DNA from: a virus
DNA length: 53,002 nucleotides
Reading direction: 5' to 3' (one strand)
Virus record (IMG/VR): IMGVR_UViG_3300027881_000018
Location: 1 to 53,002 of that record
Positions 5,580 to 51,228 of this stretch are shown here, piece by piece (the first letter of the stretch is position 1; each line of letters opens with the position of its first letter). Made by a program: the position numbers and the translations under genes. The notes beneath the pieces were generated by a model that did no database searches, was not told the origin of the DNA, and saw only the letters and a list, made by a program, of their open reading frames with translations.

Positions 5580-6064
5580 TACCCACCTATTTCAAGAATT
5601 GTCATTCCAACGTGGCAGTTCATAGCCGTCGACAGCGGATCGACGATCCTGAATCCGATGCGCCCTGAGGGCGAGACGACTATCGGCGCTGACTGTGTCC
5701 ACGACCATTGCCAGCCCGTCGCCAAATTAAAGGGCGTGCCGCCGCCGAGAACGTCGCTCACCGTCGGCTCGGCTGTCCAGTCGCCAGCGTCTATAGCCAG
5801 GCCTGTGGCGCCGGTAGCAGGGTCACCGACCTCACGCGGCTCGAATAAGATCGTGCTGCCGCCAGTACCGTCGGTCGATAGGCGAACCATTTCCATGGCG
5901 TTCGGCTCGTTCAGATCATCCTGTCCGATGATGGCGAACCATGCCTCAAGCACCATCAGAATCGCGTCGCTCGGCGCGCTGACGCGGCAGATCACCTCGT
6001 CGGCGAGCAGCGACCTCGAGAACGTCGGGATCTCGCAGTCGTACATTCTTCCAAAGGGAAACAT
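5579..6064 (-). CDS. Beta-rich virion protein, paralogue B
   Basis: A 161-residue paralogue of the 5073-5579 protein. An ATG seven codons further upstream exists, but the ATG at 6064 aligns with the MFP start of the paralogue and lies one base after the stop of the upstream gene, so it is preferred. Conserved features include NAMEMVR, a G-x-GGS segment, VLGGGTPFNLATGW and a C-terminal IGFRI segment. A tandem duplication of a small fibre-associated or binding protein is the simplest reading. Confidence 0.65.
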   Translation of the reverse strand: MFPFGRMYDCEIPTFSRSLLADEVICRVSAPSDAILMVLEAWFAIIGQDDLNEPNAMEMVRLSTDGTGGSTILFEPREVGDPATGATGLAIDAGDWTAEPTVSDVLGGGTPFNLATGWQWSWTQSAPIVVSPSGRIGFRIVDPLSTAMNCHVGMTILEIGG

Positions 6065-6065
6065 A

Positions 6066-7799
6066 TCAGTAGTACCTCGCTCCAATTTTATGCTGCAACA
6101 AAAATCCCGGGTTCATCTTGACGCCGGCGATCAGCACTTTCTCATTGTACTTCTGCACGCCGCCGTCGTCATAGACATAAGCCATGACAATTGGTGGTGG
6201 TGAGTAATAAACCTTCATTTGCATAGAATCAATCTGCGTCTTGCTCACAAATGTCGTGTTATTAGTAGAGCCACAAAAGAAGCCAAAATTTGAGTTAACA
6301 ACATCGTCGCGTCCTATCAATTCAGACCACAAATCAAGCTGCCCACCAAAATCAAATGTTTGCGGGGTTGCTACTATTGAAGGCGATGTCTCGGTCACGC
6401 TGCCATCTGAATCATCGGCTAAAATAAGCTTTATAGTCGTAAAAATGTGACCACCACCAGAGTGATCGGGGGCACTGACATCCTCAAATCTTATTTCTAT
6501 TCCAGTTATAAAGCTGCCTACTGGAATACTAAAATTAAAATTTGACGCCGCTAATCCAGAACTGCTTTCATTCTCGCCTAAAGCACTCGTTGTTTCCGCT
6601 TCGCTACTATCATCAGCCTTGCAATTATCTACATTAGACCAATCGGTATCGGAACCCGCAATCGTCCTGTTGCCAACCATCGTGCCGGGAAATACCCAAC
6701 CAGTATCAGTGGGAGCTGCATTCGAATAAATATTGGCTGATATGTAGTTGACGGTTATACCGTCTATTTCTTCTGTTGGGGTGTCCCATGTAGCGCCGTC
6801 GTCAGTGCTTTTTGTATAATAAAGGTCTTGATCTTCGCCACGAAGATCGCCGCCCGAATATAGTTGATGTAAATCTCCGTTTAACTCGATCCCGCTTAGA
6901 ATTGCGTTTTCCAGGGTGGAGCTACCATACCCCTGCCGATTGTCCGAAAGCGCCTCAATGTCAACACTGTCTAGTGATATGTTGTCCGAGCCATCTTCAG
7001 TCGCCAAGACATGTTTGCGCGGGCTTTTATTAGGACTAAAACTGAATGCGACGGCCATGACAATAATGCGTTGAGTCCCAGCATCATCGTAGGAAAGTGC
7101 GTGGGCCATTCCGGTCATCGTCAAATCACTATCCGCATCAGAAAGTGTAGATACAGTACTTAGCGTGTCGCTTGAATTTAATGTACGTCCTTCGCCATCA
7201 ACCCATCCCGTCGGTGGATCATCGGCAGTACTGATTTGAGTCTGCCAAACGCAATGAACAAAATCATTCGTGCCTAAAACACAGTTGGGGTTGCCGTAAT
7301 GAACATCCCCGCCCGCATCTAATGCAACCGGGCCACCCCAAGAACCAGATGTTCTTACGTTTACATCAACACGCTCTTTGGTATCGCCCATGTTCCGGTC
7401 GGTGTCACCAGCATAGACAACAACTACATCACCGTCTGAGCGGACTGCTATTGATGCCCAAGGGAAGGTAGGTGCATTGGTAGGCGTTTCTATCGCCTGA
7501 TCGACAACCCACGCATCAGTAGCCATGTTGAACGTGTAGTATTCATACGCCGCAGAACTCCACGCGACCATATGAATAACGTCGCCATCCTGAACGGTAG
7601 AAAAACCTAAGATGGTTCCCGCATGAACGGGATTGGTGCCCTGTACTGACCACGAATCCGTAGGGTCTGTGGCTTTGTAAACGTCTAGCTCATCGGCATC
7701 GGTTCGCACGACAGCATAAAACGCGCCGCCACTGGACTTATACGGCGGGTGATGCCCACCAAGACCCGCGGCAGCCAAAACTGTCGTTGGCAACGCCAT
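6066..7799 (-). CDS. Beta-propeller (BNR/sialidase-like) fibre protein
   Basis: A 577-residue protein whose first about 350 residues read as repeated propeller blades. One good Asp-box, S-T-D-D-G-A-T-W, is preceded by YYTK, and further W- and D-rich strand patterns recur. The last about 200 residues look like a beta-sandwich domain (FNFSIPVG, then GIEIRF, ending in a DSMQMKVYY strand). Sialidase-type propellers in phage tails bind or cleave host glycans, but I see no full set of sialidase catalytic arginines, so binding rather than hydrolysis is safer. Its base composition is clearly more AT-rich than the repeat proteins on each side, suggesting separate acquisition. Confidence 0.6.
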   Translation of the reverse strand: MALPTTVLAAAGLGGHHPPYKSSGGAFYAVVRTDADELDVYKATDPTDSWSVQGTNPVHAGTILGFSTVQDGDVIHMVAWSSAAYEYYTFNMATDAWVVDQAIETPTNAPTFPWASIAVRSDGDVVVVYAGDTDRNMGDTKERVDVNVRTSGSWGGPVALDAGGDVHYGNPNCVLGTNDFVHCVWQTQISTADDPPTGWVDGEGRTLNSSDTLSTVSTLSDADSDLTMTGMAHALSYDDAGTQRIIVMAVAFSFSPNKSPRKHVLATEDGSDNISLDSVDIEALSDNRQGYGSSTLENAILSGIELNGDLHQLYSGGDLRGEDQDLYYTKSTDDGATWDTPTEEIDGITVNYISANIYSNAAPTDTGWVFPGTMVGNRTIAGSDTDWSNVDNCKADDSSEAETTSALGENESSSGLAASNFNFSIPVGSFITGIEIRFEDVSAPDHSGGGHIFTTIKLILADDSDGSVTETSPSIVATPQTFDFGGQLDLWSELIGRDDVVNSNFGFFCGSTNNTTFVSKTQIDSMQMKVYYSPPPIVMAYVYDDGGVQKYNEKVLIAGVKMNPGFLLQHKIGARYY

Positions 7800-8506
7800 C
7801 AGAGATACACTAAACCATCAGTTGAAATTACTTCCGAACCCGATGGCAATAAATCAAATAAGTCCTGATAACTCCTAGCTAAAGTTTGCTTATATACCCA
7901 GATCAGTCGCTGTGAACCACCAAAACCATTACCCGCATTCCGGGCATTGATAATATCCTGGTCTGTCCATGTGTCATCAACAATATTTTCATACACAACA
8001 ACAGTAGGCCAATTATTGCCTAAAGCTGAACGTATTGCTTGTCGTGATCCATTTGTTGCAGCATCTTCTTGTAACAATATTGTGTTTGTGCGCGGTTGGG
8101 CATCATATATGAAACTCATAATTTCAAGCCCACGGCCCTCGTCGGGATCTAACCCAGTCGCCGTTACTTCTGCGCGTAGTTCTGTTTCCTCTGTATTAGT
8201 CTTTTCCGCATTGATATAATCAGATATATCAATTCCTACAACTGTTGCTCCTGTCTCTGAGACAATAGCCTCAACGCCCCATCCAAATCCCGCACCAACT
8301 ACACAAACGTAATCAGTTGAAAGGATATTAAGAACAGGCTGTAATCTCGCCCACATAGAAGCAAGAACAGGCTTCATAGCCCACTTGTGATAATGGACTT
8401 TGAACTCTGATCTGCCTTCGCTCGGACCGGGGCCACCACCGGGCATGTAACGCTCTACACGCCATCTGTAGTTTAAGTCGTAATCTGCCTTAGTCCATCC
8501 AGCCAC
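7799..8506 (-). CDS. SAM-dependent methyltransferase-like protein in fibre block
   Basis: A 235-residue protein with a class I methyltransferase core: motif I VCVVGAGFGWG near residues 67-77, then VVGIDIS for motif II about 20 residues later. The GTG start follows a GGAG Shine-Dalgarno. Its stop is coupled to the propeller gene by a one-base overlap. It shares the AT-rich composition of that neighbour. The substrate is unknown. Because it sits among fibre genes it may modify a virion protein, or it may be a cargo gene acquired with the propeller. The C-terminal half (after about residue 120) has no recognised motif. Confidence 0.6.
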   Translation of the reverse strand: MAGWTKADYDLNYRWRVERYMPGGGPGPSEGRSEFKVHYHKWAMKPVLASMWARLQPVLNILSTDYVCVVGAGFGWGVEAIVSETGATVVGIDISDYINAEKTNTEETELRAEVTATGLDPDEGRGLEIMSFIYDAQPRTNTILLQEDAATNGSRQAIRSALGNNWPTVVVYENIVDDTWTDQDIINARNAGNGFGGSQRLIWVYKQTLARSYQDLFDLLPSGSEVISTDGLVYL

Positions 8507-17614: not shown

Positions 17615-17846
17615 CATCGGCCCAGCGTCGAAATACCGGCGCGTCCGGGCAGGTCGCGAAGTGCGACTCGTGCTCGTCGTAGCTGAACTTGGTCTCGCCC
17701 GCATTCGGGCCCCGCTTCTTGGAGTCGGTCGGCACGACGTTGACCGGGATGTACTTGCCGCGCTTCGTCTTCATGAACACGATGTCGGCGTCGCATCCCT
17801 TGCATTGCTTGACGTCTTTCGGGTACGGGCCCGCGCCGAGGATCAT
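17607..17846 (-). CDS. Small zinc-binding-like protein
   Basis: A 79-residue protein with CKGC near residues 15-18, a GKYIPVN segment and a later H-x-x-x-C (HFATC) that could complete a zinc site. The TKRGKYIPVNVVP segment followed by H...C is seen in small phage proteins that bind nucleic acid. The ATG overlaps the upstream stop (ATGA). The longer in-frame extension to 17945 lies inside the upstream gene and is rejected. Confidence 0.65.
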   Translation of the reverse strand: MILGAGPYPKDVKQCKGCDADIVFMKTKRGKYIPVNVVPTDSKKRGPNAGETKFSYDEHESHFATCPDAPVFRRWADDG

Positions 17847-17998
17847 GTTGACTCGAACTCGACATTGCAGTCGGCGCAGTAGTAGTGCTCGATAATTTTC
17901 TTTCCAGCCCCGGTCGTGTTGCAGATCGGAGCCATGCCGCCGCACTCAGGACAGGCTTCAGTTGGTGTCTCTGGCCACGGTTCCTTGGGTTCACTCAT
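17843..17998 (-). CDS. Tiny zinc-ribbon protein
   Basis: A 51-residue protein with C-P-E-C-G-G near residues 16-21, a lone C-N-T-T-G, and C-A-D-C near residues 41-44, a typical mini zinc ribbon. Its ATG overlaps the stop of a possible 26-residue peptide (18075-17995, minus strand), and its stop overlaps the next start (ATGA). Coding sign is supported by this coupling. The function is unknown. Confidence 0.7.
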   Translation of the reverse strand: MSEPKEPWPETPTEACPECGGMAPICNTTGAGKKIIEHYYCADCNVEFEST

Positions 17999-18025
17999 TG
18001 TCGTTTTGCTCCATGATCGCTAGAT

Positions 18026-18253
18026 TCAAATGCGCCGAACTTCCCAAAACGATGGGCTGTTCGACGCGCACTCATGATCGCTGAGTTCATTTATGCTCGG
18101 AGCTACTGTCAACTTTCGCTGCCCGATCTTGCGGCTTCTCCGTTGCCTGCCGCTGCGCTGCGCCGGGTTCCCCTTGTAGCGCGTACTCGACCACCGCAAG
18201 TGGATTCCCGTCCGGTAGGCGAGGTCGGGCGCCGACACGTTACAGTTTCTCAA
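18026..18253 (-). CDS. Possible basic leader-proximal protein
   Basis: A 75-residue basic reading frame starting with TTG, first after the putative leftward promoter. It is rich in Arg and Ser (RSGRQRRSRKIGQRK), which suits nucleic-acid binding, but there is no Shine-Dalgarno and part overlaps a 26-residue frame (18075-17995) whose stop couples to the next gene. Only one of the two is likely to be translated. Evidence is weak. Confidence 0.3.
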   Translation of the reverse strand: MRNCNVSAPDLAYRTGIHLRWSSTRYKGNPAQRSGRQRRSRKIGQRKLTVAPSINELSDHECASNSPSFWEVRRI

Positions 18254-18426: not shown

Positions 18427-18456
18427 TTGGCCGCTTCAGTGTGGGTGGTATATAAT
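18427..18456 (+). promoter_or_regulatory. Rightward early promoter candidate
   Basis: TTGGCC (18427-18432) and a perfect TATAAT (18451-18456) are separated by 18 bases. Transcription would start about 18463, giving a leader of about 27 bases before the first rightward gene, which begins at 18490. Confidence 0.6.
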
Positions 18457-19017: not shown

Positions 19018-19221
19018 ATGACAGCAATAACGGCATCAGTAGTACAGATGGAGATTCGGGAGTTTCACTGGCCGGTGCGCGGACAGTGGATGCTTCGTAT
19101 CTGGCGTGAGGGCCTTCACTGTTCCTCGTTTGCCTACGACACGTACGGCTCTCGCGATGCAGCTCACGACGCCGCGCGGGATGTTGAGGCGACGGTAGTT
19201 CTCGGCAACGCATCGGAGTGA
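19018..19221 (+). CDS. Hypothetical early protein
   Basis: A 67-residue protein with AAGGAG before the ATG. It has a beta hairpin (EIREFHWPVRG, then QWMLRIW) and a C-terminal helix (RDAAHDAARDVEA). Its stop is followed at once by the first copy of the repeated stem-loop element. Confidence 0.65.
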   Translation: MTAITASVVQMEIREFHWPVRGQWMLRIWREGLHCSSFAYDTYGSRDAAHDAARDVEATVVLGNASE

Positions 19222-19278
19222 CCCATGCGGGCGCTGTCAGAGAGCGCCCTGATGGATTCACACAGAGGAGTAAATGAG
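19222..19278 (+). promoter_or_regulatory. Repeated stem-loop leader element, copy 1
   Basis: Fills the gap between two genes. TGC is followed by the stem GGGCGCT (19229-19235), the loop GTCAGAG and the complement AGCGCCC (19243-19249). Then come GGATTCACAC and AGGAG before the next ATG. In this copy ATGCGG at 19225 is also in frame with the downstream gene. Confidence 0.8.
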
Positions 19279-19689
19279 ATGTACCGAGACAGCCAATACG
19301 GACTGACGATTGATCTGAGTGGCCCAGACGGGAACGCCTTTATCCTGCTGGGCAAGGTGCGGGAATACGCGAAGCAGTTGGACAAGGACGCGAAGGCCAT
19401 CGTCGAGGAGATGATGGCGGGCGACTACAACGACCTGATCGCGGTTTTCGCTCGCGAGTTTGGCGACGTAATCACCCTGCTGAATGTGCCCGAGAGCGCG
19501 GGCGTCCGACACGACCCTCAGCCCGGCGACGACGAGCCTTTGATAGACGGGCCAGCCGCTGCGCGGCGCTGCGCCGACAACAGCTCACCGTGCGAGCGTC
19601 GCCGCAACAGCGACGACAATACTTGCGAACACTATCCGGACGAGCCTTTTTTCAACGACCCGGACTACGCGAGCGGAGGTGACTCATGA
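19279..19689 (+). CDS. Acidic early protein
   Basis: A 136-residue protein beginning at the ATG at 19279, eight bases after AGGAG of the stem-loop element. An in-frame start at 19225 would translate the element itself. The N-terminal half is helical with LIAVFAREFGDVITLL; the C-terminal half is disordered-looking, with Cys, Asp, Asn and Arg. The function is unknown. Its stop overlaps the next start (ATGA). Confidence 0.65.
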   Translation: MYRDSQYGLTIDLSGPDGNAFILLGKVREYAKQLDKDAKAIVEEMMAGDYNDLIAVFAREFGDVITLLNVPESAGVRHDPQPGDDEPLIDGPAAARRCADNSSPCERRRNSDDNTCEHYPDEPFFNDPDYASGGDS

Positions 19690-20057
19690 GCAGCGTTGAC
19701 ATCAGAACCGGAACAGAGGGACCGCGGCACGATCCCTACGGGTACGAGGAGCTAACGGTTACGAGCGAGCGTTGCGGCACGGTCACGCTTCACGAGGGGC
19801 TGGGCTGCTGGCTACGCGTCAACGGGGCCTGTGCAAACGAGGGCGATCACGATCGATGCGTCGCACTGTTCGAGCATGTTTGCGGCATCACGGCAAAGGC
19901 GGCACGGCGAGCATACGAGCGCCTTCGCAACCGATGCCAGAACTGCGGCTGCACCGACCAGCGCGCTCTGTCCGGGTATCCCGGCGAGACGCTGTACTTG
20001 TGCGTCCGCTGCGACGCCGTCGTACACGTTGACTTCAACGAGGCGGCAATCAGATAG
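19686..20057 (+). CDS. Early protein with C-terminal zinc ribbon
   Basis: A 123-residue protein. The C-terminal part has C-Q-N-C-G-C and C-V-R-C about 22 residues later, a zinc ribbon. The middle has additional Cys residues (CANEGDHDRC). The helix AARRAYERLRNR precedes the ribbon. The start overlaps the upstream stop by four bases. Stem-loop copy 2 follows the stop. Possibly a DNA- or protein-binding adaptor. Confidence 0.7.
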   Translation: MSSVDIRTGTEGPRHDPYGYEELTVTSERCGTVTLHEGLGCWLRVNGACANEGDHDRCVALFEHVCGITAKAARRAYERLRNRCQNCGCTDQRALSGYPGETLYLCVRCDAVVHVDFNEAAIR

Positions 20058-20118
20058 GAGCGACCCATGCGGCCATCGTCAGAGGGTGGCCTGATGGAAT
20101 CACACCAAGGAGAAACTG
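20058..20118 (+). promoter_or_regulatory. Repeated stem-loop leader element, copy 2
   Basis: Stem GGCCATC (20071-20077), loop GTCAGAG, partner GGTGGCC (20085-20091) with one T-G pair. TGGAATCACAC and AAGGAG follow. The stem differs from copy 1 at both sides in a compensating way. Confidence 0.8.
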
Positions 20119-20523
20119 ATGCACACCAAAATCACCAAGATTGACAAGGCGGCCTGCGGGCTGATTCGGGATCGGATCAATAAGGAGCTGGCCGAGGCCG
20201 TAGCGAAACTTGGGCTGACCGCAAAGGCCGGCCACGCCAGCTACGACGACCACAGCGTGACCATCAGGGTCGAGGTTGCGCTGGCTGGCTTCGACAAGGC
20301 GCGGCACGAGTTCGACGCGTACTGCCACATGTACGGGCTCACCCTGCGCGACTACGGCAGCACGTTCCGGCGCGGCAACGCCACGTACAAGATTGTCGGC
20401 CTGAACCCGAATGCACCGAAGTATCCGATCATCGCCGAGCTACCCAGCGGCAAGCGATACAGGTTCACGCTGGACGCGATTAAGACCAGCGATAGCTGGG
20501 AGCGAAACACCGAGCTGGCGTGA
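20119..20523 (+). CDS. Hypothetical early protein
   Basis: A 134-residue alpha/beta protein: a long N-terminal helix (IRDRINKELAEAVAKLG), then a strand HSVTIRVEVAL, a helix and a C-terminal segment with YKIVGLNPNAPKYPI, a pattern that recurs in phage early proteins of unknown function. It has AAGGAG at good spacing. Its stop starts stem-loop copy 3. Confidence 0.7.
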   Translation: MHTKITKIDKAACGLIRDRINKELAEAVAKLGLTAKAGHASYDDHSVTIRVEVALAGFDKARHEFDAYCHMYGLTLRDYGSTFRRGNATYKIVGLNPNAPKYPIIAELPSGKRYRFTLDAIKTSDSWERNTELA

Positions 20524-20585
20524 TCCCTGCGAGCGTCGTGACAGGGCGCTCTGAGGGAATCATCCCATGCAACGAGGAGAACATC
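20524..20585 (+). promoter_or_regulatory. Repeated stem-loop leader element, copy 3
   Basis: Stem GAGCGTC (20531-20537), loop GTGACAG, partner GGCGCTC (20545-20551) with a T-G pair. Then GGAATCATCC and, after a longer spacer, GAGGAG. In this copy TGA falls inside the loop in the frame that is open in copy 1, so the element is not primarily coding. Confidence 0.8.
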
Positions 20586-20762
20586 ATGACTGAAAGAACA
20601 CCGATGGAAAAATTGGCCGGCATTAAGACCGAGCTGATCACACTGAAGCCGCGGCTGACGCAGGAGTACCAGCGCAACATTGAGACCTGTATCGGATGGT
20701 GCCGTGATCTTGAGGAACACTTGACGGTGATCGACGCCGAGGACGACGACGATACATCGTGA
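20586..20762 (+). CDS. Small helical early protein
   Basis: A 58-residue protein (MTERTPMEKLAG start) that is helical throughout, with an acidic tail (DAEDDDD). The ATG follows the Shine-Dalgarno of stem-loop copy 3, and copy 4 starts right after its stop. The family is not recognised. Confidence 0.65.
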   Translation: MTERTPMEKLAGIKTELITLKPRLTQEYQRNIETCIGWCRDLEEHLTVIDAEDDDDTS

Positions 20763-20825
20763 TCTCTGCGAGCGCGGCCAGAGCGCGCTCTGAGGGAATC
20801 ATCCCGTAACCAAGAGGAGAAGACC
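20763..20825 (+). promoter_or_regulatory. Repeated stem-loop leader element, copy 4
   Basis: Stem GAGCGCG (20770-20776), loop GCCAGAG, partner CGCGCTC (20784-20790), seven Watson-Crick pairs. Then GGAATCATCC, a ten-base spacer and AGGAG before the DUF932 gene. Confidence 0.8.
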
Positions 20826-21917
20826 ATGTCTAAGGGAATGTCATTGCAGGAACTGGCCGTCGAGCTTGAGCGTCAGAAAAACGCCAAGCGAGACTTCATG
20901 GCCGACACGAAGGAACTGAGGGTAGAGCCGAACGAGGCGAGCCCGACGAACCTGTCGCTGCACATCGGGCAGCAGGATCAGTTCCCGATCAACAAGCACG
21001 CCGTCCGTCAGATCGGGGCGCGTCTCGAGATACCGGCGAAGTACGTTGACCGGCTGGCAGAGAAGCATCCCGACCTTCTGGCGTGGAATGTCAACACGCT
21101 GTTTGAGCGCGAGCCCGAGACGCGAATGGTTCGTGTTCTCGACGACAACGTGCGCGCCTTCCTGTCCGAGCGGTTCCGTCCCCTCGATAACTTTGACTTC
21201 GCCAACGCGGTGCTGCCGAAGCTGATCGAGACCGGCTGCGAGGTCAAGTCTTGTGAGATCACGGAGAGCCGCTTGTACATCAAGGCTTTTCGCCCCGGCG
21301 TCGAGCGCGAGATCAAGAAGCCCGGTACGCACATGGGCGACGGCGGTCACAACGTGATCCACAAGCTGCGACCCGGACTGTGCCTCAGCAACAGCGAGGT
21401 CGGCGCGGGATCGATGGCGGTTCAGCCCGGTGTCGATGAGGAGTGGTGCAGCAACTTGGCGCTGTTCAGCAAGAACGCCATGAAGAAGTACCACGTCGGG
21501 CGCAAGCAGGGCAACGATCAGGAGTCGATGTGGGAGATCTTCACCGACGCCACCAAGCGAGCCAGCGACAAGGCATTCTGGCTACAGGTGGCCGATCTGG
21601 TCGACGCCTCTCTGGACGGCGATCTGTTCGAGCAGATGGTCGCGGAGTGCGAGGCCAAGATGCTCGGCACCGAGATCGTCAAGCCGAGCGTTGCCATCAA
21701 GGAGCTGGCCAACCTCTCCGAGACTGAGGAGGAGGGCATCCTCGCTGAGCTGATCAAGGGCGGCGACCTGTCGCAGTTCGGGATGCAGTACGCCGTAACC
21801 CGGTTCGCGCAGGCGCGCGACGTCAGCTACGACCGGCAGGTCGAGCTTGAGCAACTGGGCGGCAACATCATCGAGCTACCCACCAAGGACTGGGAACGTA
21901 TCGCGCTGGCCGCGTAG
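20826..21917 (+). CDS. DUF932 family protein
   Basis: A 363-residue protein with the features of DUF932, a family common in phages, plasmids and integrative elements: an N-terminal region with FPINKHAVRQIGARLEIPAKYVDRL, the core RMVRVLDDNVRAFLSERFRPLDN, and a conserved middle with GAGSMAVQPGV. No member has a well-established activity; roles in replication or host takeover have been suggested. It is the largest rightward gene and lies behind stem-loop copy 4, so it is probably well expressed early. Start ATG has AGGAG at eight bases. Confidence 0.8.
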   Translation: MSKGMSLQELAVELERQKNAKRDFMADTKELRVEPNEASPTNLSLHIGQQDQFPINKHAVRQIGARLEIPAKYVDRLAEKHPDLLAWNVNTLFEREPETRMVRVLDDNVRAFLSERFRPLDNFDFANAVLPKLIETGCEVKSCEITESRLYIKAFRPGVEREIKKPGTHMGDGGHNVIHKLRPGLCLSNSEVGAGSMAVQPGVDEEWCSNLALFSKNAMKKYHVGRKQGNDQESMWEIFTDATKRASDKAFWLQVADLVDASLDGDLFEQMVAECEAKMLGTEIVKPSVAIKELANLSETEEEGILAELIKGGDLSQFGMQYAVTRFAQARDVSYDRQVELEQLGGNIIELPTKDWERIALAA

Positions 21918-21927
21918 AAGAAACGCC

Positions 21928-22131
21928 ATGCTGTTAACACGCAAGCAACGCGAAGCACTGAAGGCCGTATTTGATCGGCAGCCAGTGTACGAGCAGTTCA
22001 CGCGAAACCGGCTAACTTATCGCCAGTTCAGGCGCTTAGTGAAACCGGAAATAGGTGGCTTTGGCGCGGCGATGGTGCCGTGGTGCGGTATGTGGCTAGG
22101 CATCGAAAAAGATGGCCACACCCACAGCTAG
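21928..22131 (+). CDS. Hypothetical basic early protein
   Basis: A 67-residue basic protein starting at ATG 21928. Helical N-terminus TRKQREALKAVFDRQPVYEQ, then TYRQFRRLVKPEIG, a pattern also seen in small DNA-binding phage proteins, and a C-terminal hydrophobic segment (MVPWCGMWLGI). No known family. Stem-loop copy 5 follows. Confidence 0.65.
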   Translation: MLLTRKQREALKAVFDRQPVYEQFTRNRLTYRQFRRLVKPEIGGFGAAMVPWCGMWLGIEKDGHTHS

Positions 22132-22194
22132 AGGAGGTGATCCATGCGAGCGTCGTCAGAGGGCGCTCCGGTGGAATCACACCGAGGAGATGAC
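22132..22194 (+). promoter_or_regulatory. Repeated stem-loop leader element, copy 5
   Basis: Stem GAGCGTC (22148-22154), loop GTCAGAG, partner GGCGCTC (22162-22168). TGGAATCACAC and GAGGAG follow before the ATG at 22195. As in copy 1, an ATG at 22144 is in frame with the downstream gene. Confidence 0.8.
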
Positions 22195-22494
22195 ATGAGC
22201 ATTTTGTTCACGCAGTTTTTGTTACCCGACGGTCACACGCGAGAGATGTGGATCAGGCGACCGCGAGCAGTCGAGCTACTGGCCCGTCAGCTCAGGGACG
22301 CGGGACACCGCTTCGAGATCGAGACGCTGACCACTGGCGAAATCTCTATGACGGTCGAGGCCGACGGCGAGGACGGCGCGGAGATCGTGCGCTCTCACCA
22401 GATTTGTGCCAACGGACCGCCAGTTCTCAAAAGCGTCGACACGATGATGGCCGAAGCGTATCTCAACTGGCAGTCGGGCAAGGCGGCCTACTGA
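22195..22494 (+). CDS. Hypothetical early protein
   Basis: A 99-residue alpha/beta protein beginning MSILFTQF, with an amphipathic helix (RAVELLARQLRDAGHRF) and strands EISMTVEADGE. The ATG 22195 follows the element Shine-Dalgarno; an earlier in-frame ATG at 22144 would translate the element. Its stop shares one base with the next ATG (TGATG). Confidence 0.65.
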   Translation: MSILFTQFLLPDGHTREMWIRRPRAVELLARQLRDAGHRFEIETLTTGEISMTVEADGEDGAEIVRSHQICANGPPVLKSVDTMMAEAYLNWQSGKAAY

Positions 22495-22823: not shown

Positions 22824-23031
22824 CGCCGAGTGGCTAGAGATGGCCCTCGTTACCATCGACCGTTGCCCCCGCATGATGGCGAGGGCGGCGGTTCTTTTTG
22901 ACATGAGACAGGAGAATGACCATGACCGACAAAGACGACTACGACGACATCCCCGAGGGATACGTCGTCACCGAGAGCCTGAACGACGGCCCGATGGTGC
23001 TGGCACCGGACGGTACGCAGACCCCGCTTGA
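22816..23031 (+). CDS. Small overlapping reading frame
   Basis: A 71-residue frame starting with ATG that overlaps the upstream stop by eight bases (ATGACTGA), the same junction type found in the leftward early genes. Its first about 32 residues look like a real protein (EWLEMALVTIDRCPRMMARAAVLFDM split over a helix). The remaining half runs through the next gene in another frame and is Arg-rich. Translation is plausible but the C-terminal half is probably incidental. Confidence 0.4.
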   Translation: MTDAEWLEMALVTIDRCPRMMARAAVLFDMRQENDHDRQRRLRRHPRGIRRHREPERRPDGAGTGRYADPA

Positions 23032-26706: not shown

Positions 26707-27102
26707 ATGAACTTAGCAGAATACGTTGGTAAGACTACGCGACGTGGATCATGCGGCTGCGGCCGGTGCTTCGACGCGCCGGATGAGCCGAGCAAGCCGG
26801 ACGGTCACACGGTCAGCGTCGAGTTCTTCGACGTCAGCCAGCAGGGCGCGAACAAGGACACGTTCCTCGACCTCGTTCGGTCGGAGTTCCCGCACTGGCT
26901 CGACGGCAAGGAACACAGCTACCTTGAGACCGGTGCCGACATCGGAGATCAGGGGCTCGCCATGCAGGCGATGGCGCTCGGCCAACTGCTCGGCGCGTGG
27001 GAGCTGATGACCCCTAGCAAGATGCTCGGCACGGACGTCGACAAGGACATCGCGATGCAGATGGCGGGCAGCGGTTACGTCACGATCAGGTACACGTCAT
27101 GA
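26707..27102 (+). CDS. Hypothetical early protein
   Basis: A 131-residue protein with an N-terminal C-G-C-G-R-C cluster (residues 16-21), a strand VSVEFFDVS, and a C-terminal helical region (MQAMALGQLLGAWELM). ATG has AACTGGAG ten bases upstream after a 30-base gap. Function unknown. Confidence 0.65.
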   Translation: MNLAEYVGKTTRRGSCGCGRCFDAPDEPSKPDGHTVSVEFFDVSQQGANKDTFLDLVRSEFPHWLDGKEHSYLETGADIGDQGLAMQAMALGQLLGAWELMTPSKMLGTDVDKDIAMQMAGSGYVTIRYTS

Positions 27103-49078: not shown

Positions 49079-49494
49079 TGTGACTGAACCCGCGTCCGCG
49101 AGCTGGGCGTCATGCCGAACTCGGTCAGTATGTCCATGCAGGTCCGCTGGGCCTTGTTTGCGATCGCCAAGAACGGGTTTTGGATCGGGTATCCCTTCGG
49201 GCTCTTCACGATCATGCCCATCTCGCGAACCTTGATGACTGAGTCTCGCCAGCGAACGAAGTTGACTGCGTATATCGAGAGGGCGTCGATGTCGTACTCG
49301 GTCATCACCCTCATGCGCGCCAGCTTCGCGGCGTTGTCGGTAAAGACGGCCGTCTCGTCTGGCTCAAGGTGACTCGGGGCATCGGGAATGGTGACGGGTA
49401 CGACCGGCTCGTCCGCATTCATCCGGTCTGGACGATCCGTGCCCCGTATTAGGCGCAGATTTCTTGGTGTCGGCTTCGGCCCTCGCTTACTCAT
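49075..49494 (-). CDS. Small terminase subunit (P27 family)
   Basis: A 139-residue protein with the P27 pattern: KRGPKPTPRNLRLIRGT at the N-terminus, PSHLEPDETAVFTDNAAKLARM, YDIDALSIYAVNFVRW and IQNPFLAIANKAQRT. It binds the packaging start. ATGAGTAA overlaps the glycosyltransferase stop by eight bases, tying packaging genes to the upstream cassette. Confidence 0.85.
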   Translation of the reverse strand: MSKRGPKPTPRNLRLIRGTDRPDRMNADEPVVPVTIPDAPSHLEPDETAVFTDNAAKLARMRVMTEYDIDALSIYAVNFVRWRDSVIKVREMGMIVKSPKGYPIQNPFLAIANKAQRTCMDILTEFGMTPSSRTRVQSQ

Positions 49495-50407
49495 CGCTCG
49501 CGTCTTCCTCGATCATCGCTCGCAGCGCCTTGCTCGCTGTCTCGCGCCCCTCTACGGTTCGCAGCACCATCTTGTACTTGTCGTTGCTCCTGATCTTATC
49601 CCAGTCGATGTCTGTCCGTCTCCTCAGGGGCGTGTCGAAGTGCTGCCAGTTCTTCTTGATCTCAAAGTGCGGCCTCTCGAATCTCCTGTCGACGCTCGCC
49701 ACCTGCGGCCACGCTCGCTCAAGCAGCCGCGCCCCGCGCAGCCTGCCGTCGCCGTCGTAGAGCTTGCCCATGCCGCCCGGCATCTTCATGGTCGGAACCT
49801 TCTGGCACAGAAAGGCGTTTAGCTGCACCGTACACCAGCCGTCTGACAGCACCTGCAGGCACATGTCCACGTCGTCGTTCTGCTCTAGCCGCCACCGCTG
49901 ACTCAGCTCATTCAACACCAGCGTGCAGGAGTACACGTGCGCGTTCAGCACGAACGGCGGCTGCGGTACGCCCGCGAAGTTGACGTAGTTCAGGCCAGCG
50001 ACGGCGACGTTCTCGTAGCGATCGCAAAAGTCCTCGCACGCGGCCAGCGCGATGCCTGCGCGGATCGGCAGCCGCTTCTGCCTGTGCATCCGACAGAGGT
50101 ACCGGATGTTGTCGTCGAGCTGCCAGTGCCGCTTGTCGCCTCGCGCTACAGAGTGATCCTTGATCCAGTTGCGGGCCGCCACCAGTCCCTTGTCTGACCA
50201 CGGCAGAACCAGCACCTCGGCTGCCGGGTATCGCTTCTCGTACTCCTCGGCCTGATGCGGCTCGGCCACGATGTAGTGCGGAACCTTGTCGCGCTCCAAG
50301 AACCTCAGCGTCGGCGCGGGTGCAGGCGGCAGGTGATCCCACCTCCGGTGCCGGATCTCGTAGCGGTCCTTGGACGGTACGTATATGGGGTAGCGCGGCT
50401 CGATCAT
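49487..50407 (-). CDS. TET-associated-type glycosyltransferase (DNA modification candidate)
   Basis: A 306-residue protein: RYPIYVPSKDRYE at the N-terminus, VPHYIVAEPHQAEEYE, VLVLPWSDKGLVAARNWIKD, and HWQLDDNI (residues 94-101) in place of a DxD metal/nucleotide site. Later come VYSCTLV, NDDVDMCLQVL, and RRFERPHFEI. This order matches the TAGT group of phage glycosyltransferases described with TET/JBP oxygenases, thought to add sugars to modified bases. No TET/JBP gene is visible here. It is coupled to the methyltransferase (ATGA) and the small terminase. Confidence 0.65.
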   Translation of the reverse strand: MIEPRYPIYVPSKDRYEIRHRRWDHLPPAPAPTLRFLERDKVPHYIVAEPHQAEEYEKRYPAAEVLVLPWSDKGLVAARNWIKDHSVARGDKRHWQLDDNIRYLCRMHRQKRLPIRAGIALAACEDFCDRYENVAVAGLNYVNFAGVPQPPFVLNAHVYSCTLVLNELSQRWRLEQNDDVDMCLQVLSDGWCTVQLNAFLCQKVPTMKMPGGMGKLYDGDGRLRGARLLERAWPQVASVDRRFERPHFEIKKNWQHFDTPLRRRTDIDWDKIRSNDKYKMVLRTVEGRETASKALRAMIEEDASDE

Positions 50408-51228
50408 GTCTGGCCGCCCCTTCTCTTGCGCCAGAACATCGGGCGGCTGTTCCACAGCGTCGTCTGCATCTTGTCGTAGCCGAGCTTTCGCAGCGCCTTG
50501 TTGAATAGCTTCGACGTCTGCCTTCCGCCGACTGTCCTGCCGAATATCTCGTAGTCCACGAAGTGCCCGGTGGACAGCGTGCCGAACGAGTTTGCGATCA
50601 GCAGGTACCGCGGCTGAAGGTACTCGATGACCTCGAACAGGTGGGAGATCGGCGCGAGAATATGCTCGAAGTACTCGCTGGCGAACACGAGGTCGGTCTG
50701 CCCCTCGGCGTCCATGACGGTCGCGGCCATCGAGAATCCGTAGCGGTCGCCCATCACTGTCGCGACGCTCATCTGCACCGTGCCGTCGAGGTTCGTGCCG
50801 ACGACCTCGGCCTCTGGAAATAGCTGCGCGAGCGCGGCGGTCGAGTGGCCGCAGCCGCAGCCGAGATCGACGACGCGCCGCACGTGGCCCATGCTGCCGA
50901 CGATGCCCGCTGGCGGCATTGACTTGTCCTGCTGGATCTCCGTCAGGTACTTGCGCGAGTAGATGATCCACGACGACCACAGGTCGCCGACGTACTCGTC
51001 GGTGTCGTACACGGCGTAGTCTGGCTCGGGCAGAGAGTCGTACCAGCGCCTCTCCAGATCGATCAGCTCCGGTGCGTTGTCCGGCTGCGTCACGCTGCCG
51101 TTCTTCCAGCGAACCGTGCTCCTGCAGATCTCTCCGATCTTCTCCTCGTCGATCTCGCGGAACGAGCCGAAGTCACTCAAGAATACCTGAAGCGTATCGC
51201 TCGGATTCTCTTGGAGGATTGTGTTCAT
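50404..51228 (-). CDS. Class I methyltransferase of modification cassette
   Basis: A 274-residue protein with motif I VVDLGCGCGHSTAALAQLFP (residues 119-138), motif II VVGTNLD, and FASEYFEHIL for the motif IV-like region. No PC motif of cytosine-C5 enzymes or DPPY-type motif of N-methylases is seen, so it is unlikely to be a plain DNA methylase. In its cassette it could methylate a base side chain or a sugar. Overlaps both neighbours by four bases. Confidence 0.7.
   Translation of the reverse strand: MNTILQENPSDTLQVFLSDFGSFREIDEEKIGEICRSTVRWKNGSVTQPDNAPELIDLERRWYDSLPEPDYAVYDTDEYVGDLWSSWIIYSRKYLTEIQQDKSMPPAGIVGSMGHVRRVVDLGCGCGHSTAALAQLFPEAEVVGTNLDGTVQMSVATVMGDRYGFSMAATVMDAEGQTDLVFASEYFEHILAPISHLFEVIEYLQPRYLLIANSFGTLSTGHFVDYEIFGRTVGGRQTSKLFNKALRKLGYDKMQTTLWNSRPMFWRKRRGGQT

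Follow-up and report, generated by a model that had tools for sequence, protein, structure and literature searches.

The stretch of DNA analysed here, called the window in the following, is the entire IMG/VR record IMGVR_UViG_3300027881_000018 with a length of 53,002 bases. As the record is linear it is possibly a fragment of a genome. It contains siphovirus-type structural genes (terminase, portal, capsid, and tape measure), and its terminase is closest to those of proteobacterial phages, with at most 47% identity, which makes a proteobacterial host likely. No nucleotide match to the stretch from 15 to 30 kb of the window was found among GenBank phages. According to protein scans (downstream gene, terminase, and YqaJ recombinase) the early region is shared by two sister phages only, G008 and G015, with 69–73% identity to the window in the terminase and 45% in a 363 amino acid protein. 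Positions 6001–8000 have a G+C content of 47% as compared to 55–68% elsewhere in the genome, and possibly are a recent acquisition. A protein encoded at 49487–50980 on the minus strand resembles the beta-glucosyl-HMC-alpha-glucosyltransferase family (phrog_842), which may hint at glycosylation of DNA or of something else. A fluoride-riboswitch-like match on the plus strand (26958–27023; 28.3 bits versus a gathering value of 34) has much of the conserved core but lies inside the open frame 26707–27102.

Five hairpins in identical orientation are found in one rightward gene block, between a promoter and a terminator which were both recognised by consensus only. The block is labelled early from its gene content.

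18427..18456, plus strand: sigma-70-like promoter TTGGCC-18-TATAAT, 10/12 consensus matches
19218..19261, plus strand: hairpin E1, type A, before a 136 amino acid gene at 19279; 73.2 bits
19266..19271, plus strand: Shine-Dalgarno sequence GAGGAG downstream of E1, with an equivalent behind each of E2 to E5
20060..20103, plus strand: hairpin E2, type A, before a 134 amino acid gene at 20119
20520..20563, plus strand: hairpin E3, type B, before a 58 amino acid gene at 20586
20759..20802, plus strand: hairpin E4, type B, before the 363 amino acid gene at 20826 (phrog_1362, unknown function)
22137..22180, plus strand: hairpin E5, type A, before a 99 amino acid gene at 22195
22858..22893, plus strand: terminator-like hairpin followed by CTTTTT, -24.6 kcal/mol, z-score -3.5

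Judged from its consensus match the promoter likely starts the rightward early unit; promoter scans are weak evidence, with about two chance hits expected in the region. The terminator-like hairpin is the strongest one in the stretch from 18 to 30.5 kb and is likely to be the 3' end of the unit holding the five elements. The proteins encoded downstream of the copies have no recognised family in common. To the left of the unit, a divergent promoter region (18005–18100) contains the near-direct repeats CATGATCGCTAGATTCA and CATGATCGCTGAGTTCA, a possible operator, and the leftward gene 17843–17998 has a long hairpin in its leader.

A preliminary description of this DNA had seen in five gaps a TGC, a 7-bp stem with a 7-base loop, a GGAATCA box, and a Shine-Dalgarno sequence, in two subtypes. 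All five copies were found in their places, with stems, loops, subtypes, and Shine-Dalgarno boxes as described. The 7-bp stem is only the upper part of a longer hairpin, however, two further helices having been missed. Each gap carries one bulged hairpin of 44 nucleotides. Its lower stem P0 reads GUGAY/AUCAY, and the middle stem P1 is CCAU/AUGG in type A (E1 and E2; E5 with a G-U pair) and CYCU/AGGG in type B (E3 and E4). A symmetric 2x2 internal loop GC/YG (GC/UG, with CG in E5) separates P1 from the upper stem P2 of 7 bp, which is capped by a 7-nucleotide loop with the consensus GYSASAG and the sequence GTCAGAG in three of the five copies. The TGC and GGAATCA boxes correspond to the internal loop and the helices P1 and P0 and lie within the hairpin; the latter box, which reads GGATTCA in E1, is a pairing arm and not unpaired. 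RNAfold predicted the full shape for E1, E3, E4, and E5, and P1 plus P2 for E2, and RNAalifold yielded the same structure from the alignment of the five copies. P0 is the weakest part; E1 has one mismatch there, and E2 has two. In all five copies the Shine-Dalgarno sequence is located outside the hairpin and directly after it, and the hairpin ends 14–23 nucleotides before the ATG. The upstream stop codon is overlapped by the hairpin in E1 (19219–19221), E3 (20521–20523), and E4 (20760–20762).

At the base of E5 the sequence AGGAGGTGATCC (22132–22146), which is perfectly complementary to the 16S rRNA 3' end over an extended length, precedes an in-frame ATG, so that type A copies contain a potential start site of their own. 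An upstream reading frame which begins at the hairpin base of the type A copies (GGAG-N6-ATG) was considered as a general function and rejected, as type B has CTG, the frame of E3 meets a stop four codons in, and the frames differ between copies.

In the alignment of the five copies 96.3% of the 80 pair cells (16 pairs) are standard pairs. Changes on both sides occur in five of the 16 pairs and amount to eight cells as compared to a mean of 2.4 two-sided cells in shuffled alignments, and none of 500 shuffles matched the observed number of paired cells or the covariation score. Upon sliding the arms by 1–3 columns 34–48% of the cells were paired, with 0–1 compensatory pairs. The earlier view that structure rather than sequence is conserved passes both controls. 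Chance is excluded as the source of the five copies, and the elements are real covarying RNA elements in which the structure is kept while the sequence changes. As the two-sided changes follow no single split of the copies, with pair 8-36 placing E5 with E1 and E2 and pair 13-31 placing it with E3 and E4, they represent several events or mixing between copies. All one-sided changes which keep a pair are G-U on the mRNA strand, where seven G-U cells are found versus two A-C cells, and this bias fits selection on the mRNA and not on double-stranded DNA. Three cells are exceptions to pairing (two with C-A, one with C-U), and all of them are located in P0. Three of seven positions vary in the apical loop, one of four in the internal loop, and nine of 14 in the upper stem. 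A covariance model of the five window copies scored them, its own training sequences, at 68–73 bits and found no sixth copy in the window, where the next best match (15.8 bits) was the reverse strand of E1.

In G008 and G015 bulged hairpins of similar build stand before the orthologue of the 363 amino acid gene, with stems which differ from those in the window, and G008 has a second such hairpin before the gene preceding the orthologue. Their fold z-scores range from -3.2 to -5.4. The build is kept in these hairpins; the sequences of loop and internal loop are not. A search of relatives with the covariance model of the window copies, suggested as a check in the preliminary description, did not find the sister elements. 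Its best match in the sisters (E=0.06) lies inside coding sequence and was rejected. As the sequences differ and the model gave no match, homology of the sister hairpins rests on place and build. DNA-pattern scans of IMG/VR yielded no true relatives with the patterns tried, the matches listed not being the element.

Phages which are more distant in leader type (66–70% identity in the 363 amino acid protein) have a short hairpin beside a promoter instead. Short hairpins with the loop GTTGT or GTTGC and variable stem sequence were seen in L124 (3190–3235), L125 (4440–4479), L126 (5728–5771), and L249 (upstream of 5001), where they have a sigma-70-like promoter on one side and the start of the same gene on the other. 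In L038 (10303–10362), L231, L235, L238, L239, L241, and L242 a hairpin ACCCG..CGGGT is followed by GGTGG-CAATT-CCGCC and a Shine-Dalgarno sequence; it precedes one gene (MALTKEFEYD...) and may be a leader motif in its own right. Hairpins with GGTGGCAATTCCGCC in other phages have only a short motif in common with the elements and were not counted.

No Rfam family matched the elements at E values of up to 5. The leader of lambda N has an RNase III site, and so does the leader of lambda cIII (cited in PMC5371410). These leaders share with the window elements a hairpin near the ribosome binding site of an early phage mRNA. The likeness is one of description, and their sites are single and form no repeated covarying family. 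The ESAS elements of cluster K mycobacteriophages, to which the preliminary description had compared the hairpins, are likewise inverted repeats which occur in several copies, each shortly before a start-associated Shine-Dalgarno sequence. Their arms are 17-bp imperfect repeats, however, with changes generally not supporting RNA pairing, and an RNA hairpin was rejected by the authors (PMC3203893). As changes in the window elements are compensatory, the comparison fails; the elements do not belong to ESAS, and the likeness is superficial.

The R sites of T7-like phages are a textbook example of phage mRNA processing. Dunn and Studier in 1983 reportedly located the RNase III cuts of the T7 sites in the internal loop. 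The enzyme reads structure and not a fixed sequence and cuts lambda, T7, and T3 RNAs (PMC5371410); R1.1, located between T7 genes 1.0 and 1.1, is a structured RNA of 60 nucleotides with an internal loop (PMC6121014). Five RNase III recognition sites are annotated as stem-loops in the record of T3, and five putative ones in that of phiYeO3-12. They are 40–56 nucleotides long, a range which includes the 44 nucleotides of the window elements, consist of an upper and a lower stem separated by an internal loop with about 2-3 nucleotides per side, and end 12–36 nucleotides before the start codon, some of them overlapping the upstream stop codon. On folding, the leaders of T7 genes 0.3, 0.5, 1, and 1.3 yielded a bulged hairpin of the same kind. 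Among known elements the T7/T3 sites (R0.3, R0.5, R1, R1.1, and R1.3) come closest to the window elements. Both show the order of stop codon, bulged hairpin, Shine-Dalgarno sequence, and start, and both are repeated within an early polycistronic unit with host-type promoters. The upper stem of E2, GGCCATC/GGTGGCC, is identical to that of T3 R1, GGTCATC/GGTGGCC, in 13 of 14 positions, and G008a, the hairpin before the gene preceding the orthologue, has GGTCATTC/GAGTGGCC as compared to GGTCGCTC/GAGTGGCC in T7 R0.5. The T7 signature GGUC/GGCC with a U-G wobble is fully present in G008a, nearly matched in E2, and absent in E1, E3, E4, and E5. The internal loop of the window elements is a symmetric 2x2 in contrast to 2/3 or 3/3 in T7/T3, and an additional helix break and the conserved 7-nucleotide loop set them apart as well. 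With its siphovirus-type structural genes the window phage is unrelated to T7 and T3.

A second covariance model was trained only on sites of the T7 group (n=15), leaving out T7 R1.1, which it recovered at 57.7 bits. With filters off, E2 was the top match in the window and the sole one with E≤10, at a weak score of 10.9 bits (E=7.4). In the sisters, also with filters off, the G015 leader of the orthologous gene ranked first over the full length of the model (17.4 bits, weak at E=0.16), and G008a second (12.8 bits, weak at E=2). On other phage DNA (562 kb, searched with default filters) the maximum was 15.1 bits. Taken singly these scores are not significant; what is unlikely to arise by chance is the ranking, the three placements having a probability of about 1e-6 among the full sets of 326 7-bp hairpins in the window and 290 in the sisters, a rough estimate which treats hairpins as equal. 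Annotated putative RNase III sites of gh-1 showed no match to the T7 model, so that a missing match does not exclude an RNase III site.

Among the functions offered originally, namely protein binding, control of processing, and control of translation, the resemblance to T7/T3 RNase III sites favours processing, the other two staying as rivals. The five elements are probably, with a rough probability of 0.6, intercistronic RNase III-type processing sites working like T7 R sites. The transcript would fold into the hairpins while being made, and the stem would be cut by host RNase III at the internal loop or close to it, some 24–33 nucleotides before the next start codon. No RNase III domain was detectable in the window phage. 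The polycistronic early RNA would thus be turned into shorter mRNAs, upstream pieces ending in a protective hairpin and downstream pieces beginning with a short leader which carries a free Shine-Dalgarno sequence, and the mRNA stability and translation of each gene would be set separately. Support comes from the covariation with its controls, the strand bias of the wobble pairs, the T7/T3-like build, the ranking by the T7-group model, and the unit running from a host-type promoter to a terminator, which resembles the T7 early region in this respect. Several points count against RNase III. The scores of the T7-group model are weak, with only E2 reported from the five copies and the GGUC/GGCC signature absent in the other four. 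The window helix of about 18 steps including the 2x2 loop is below the 22-nucleotide minimum criterion of PMC5371410, though the annotated T3 R1.3 is as short. Finally, the stem is more variable than the apical and the internal loop, and a nuclease reading structure only does not need such a constraint on the loops.

The low variability of the loops speaks for a translational operator, in which a phage or host RNA-binding protein reads both of them (GYSASAG at the apex, GC/YG internally) and either blocks or helps the loading of ribosomes at the neighbouring Shine-Dalgarno sequence, thereby coordinating five early genes. That unrelated genes follow the copies is also in favour of such an operator. 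The sisters, however, keep the build and not these loop sequences, no candidate binding protein was identified, and the loops could be shared by descent if the five copies are of recent common origin, and an operator is judged rather unlikely. It is doubtful whether the elements form a phage RNA regulon, in which a dedicated phage or host protein reading both loops acts on the RNA to control the five early genes jointly. Still less likely are passive mRNA elements, uncut hairpins which protect 3' or 5' ends or which insulate the Shine-Dalgarno sequence from upstream pairing and uncouple neighbouring genes. The hairpins do occupy the gap from stop codon to Shine-Dalgarno sequence and leave the latter free, and the more distant relatives have their short promoter-side hairpin before the same gene, but a passive role needs neither a bulged shape of two or three tiers nor a conserved internal loop.

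A switch operated by the ribosome is very improbable. A ribosome at the upstream stop codon would cover the 5' arm and leave the 3' arm free to form a small alternative hairpin close to the Shine-Dalgarno sequence, which would alter initiation. In E1, E3, E4, G008b, and G015 the stop codon does overlap the 5' arm, and E5 (GGUG-GAAUCA-CACC) as well as each of the three sister elements (GGUGG-CAAUU-CCGCC) has a well-formed alternative hairpin; this hairpin is broken in E1, however, and has an A-C mismatch in E2 to E4, and the stop codons of E2 and E5 lie outside the arm. A site at the DNA level, be it an operator, a promoter, or a site of recombination, has been proposed for ESAS; here it would account for inverted repeats upstream of starts but is scarcely credible in view of the compensatory arm changes, the G-U wobbles on the mRNA strand, the low score of the E1 reverse strand (15.8 versus 73.2 bits forward), and the single orientation of all copies.

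The element is most likely a variant, in a new lineage, of a known kind of site at which phage mRNA is processed. If this holds true, it would point to host RNase III processing of early operons as a wider or a convergent phage strategy, a similar multi-copy covarying design occurring here in a siphovirus lineage unrelated to T7. The structure would then provide a handle for spotting sites of this kind in uncultured phages, for which searching by sequence fails.
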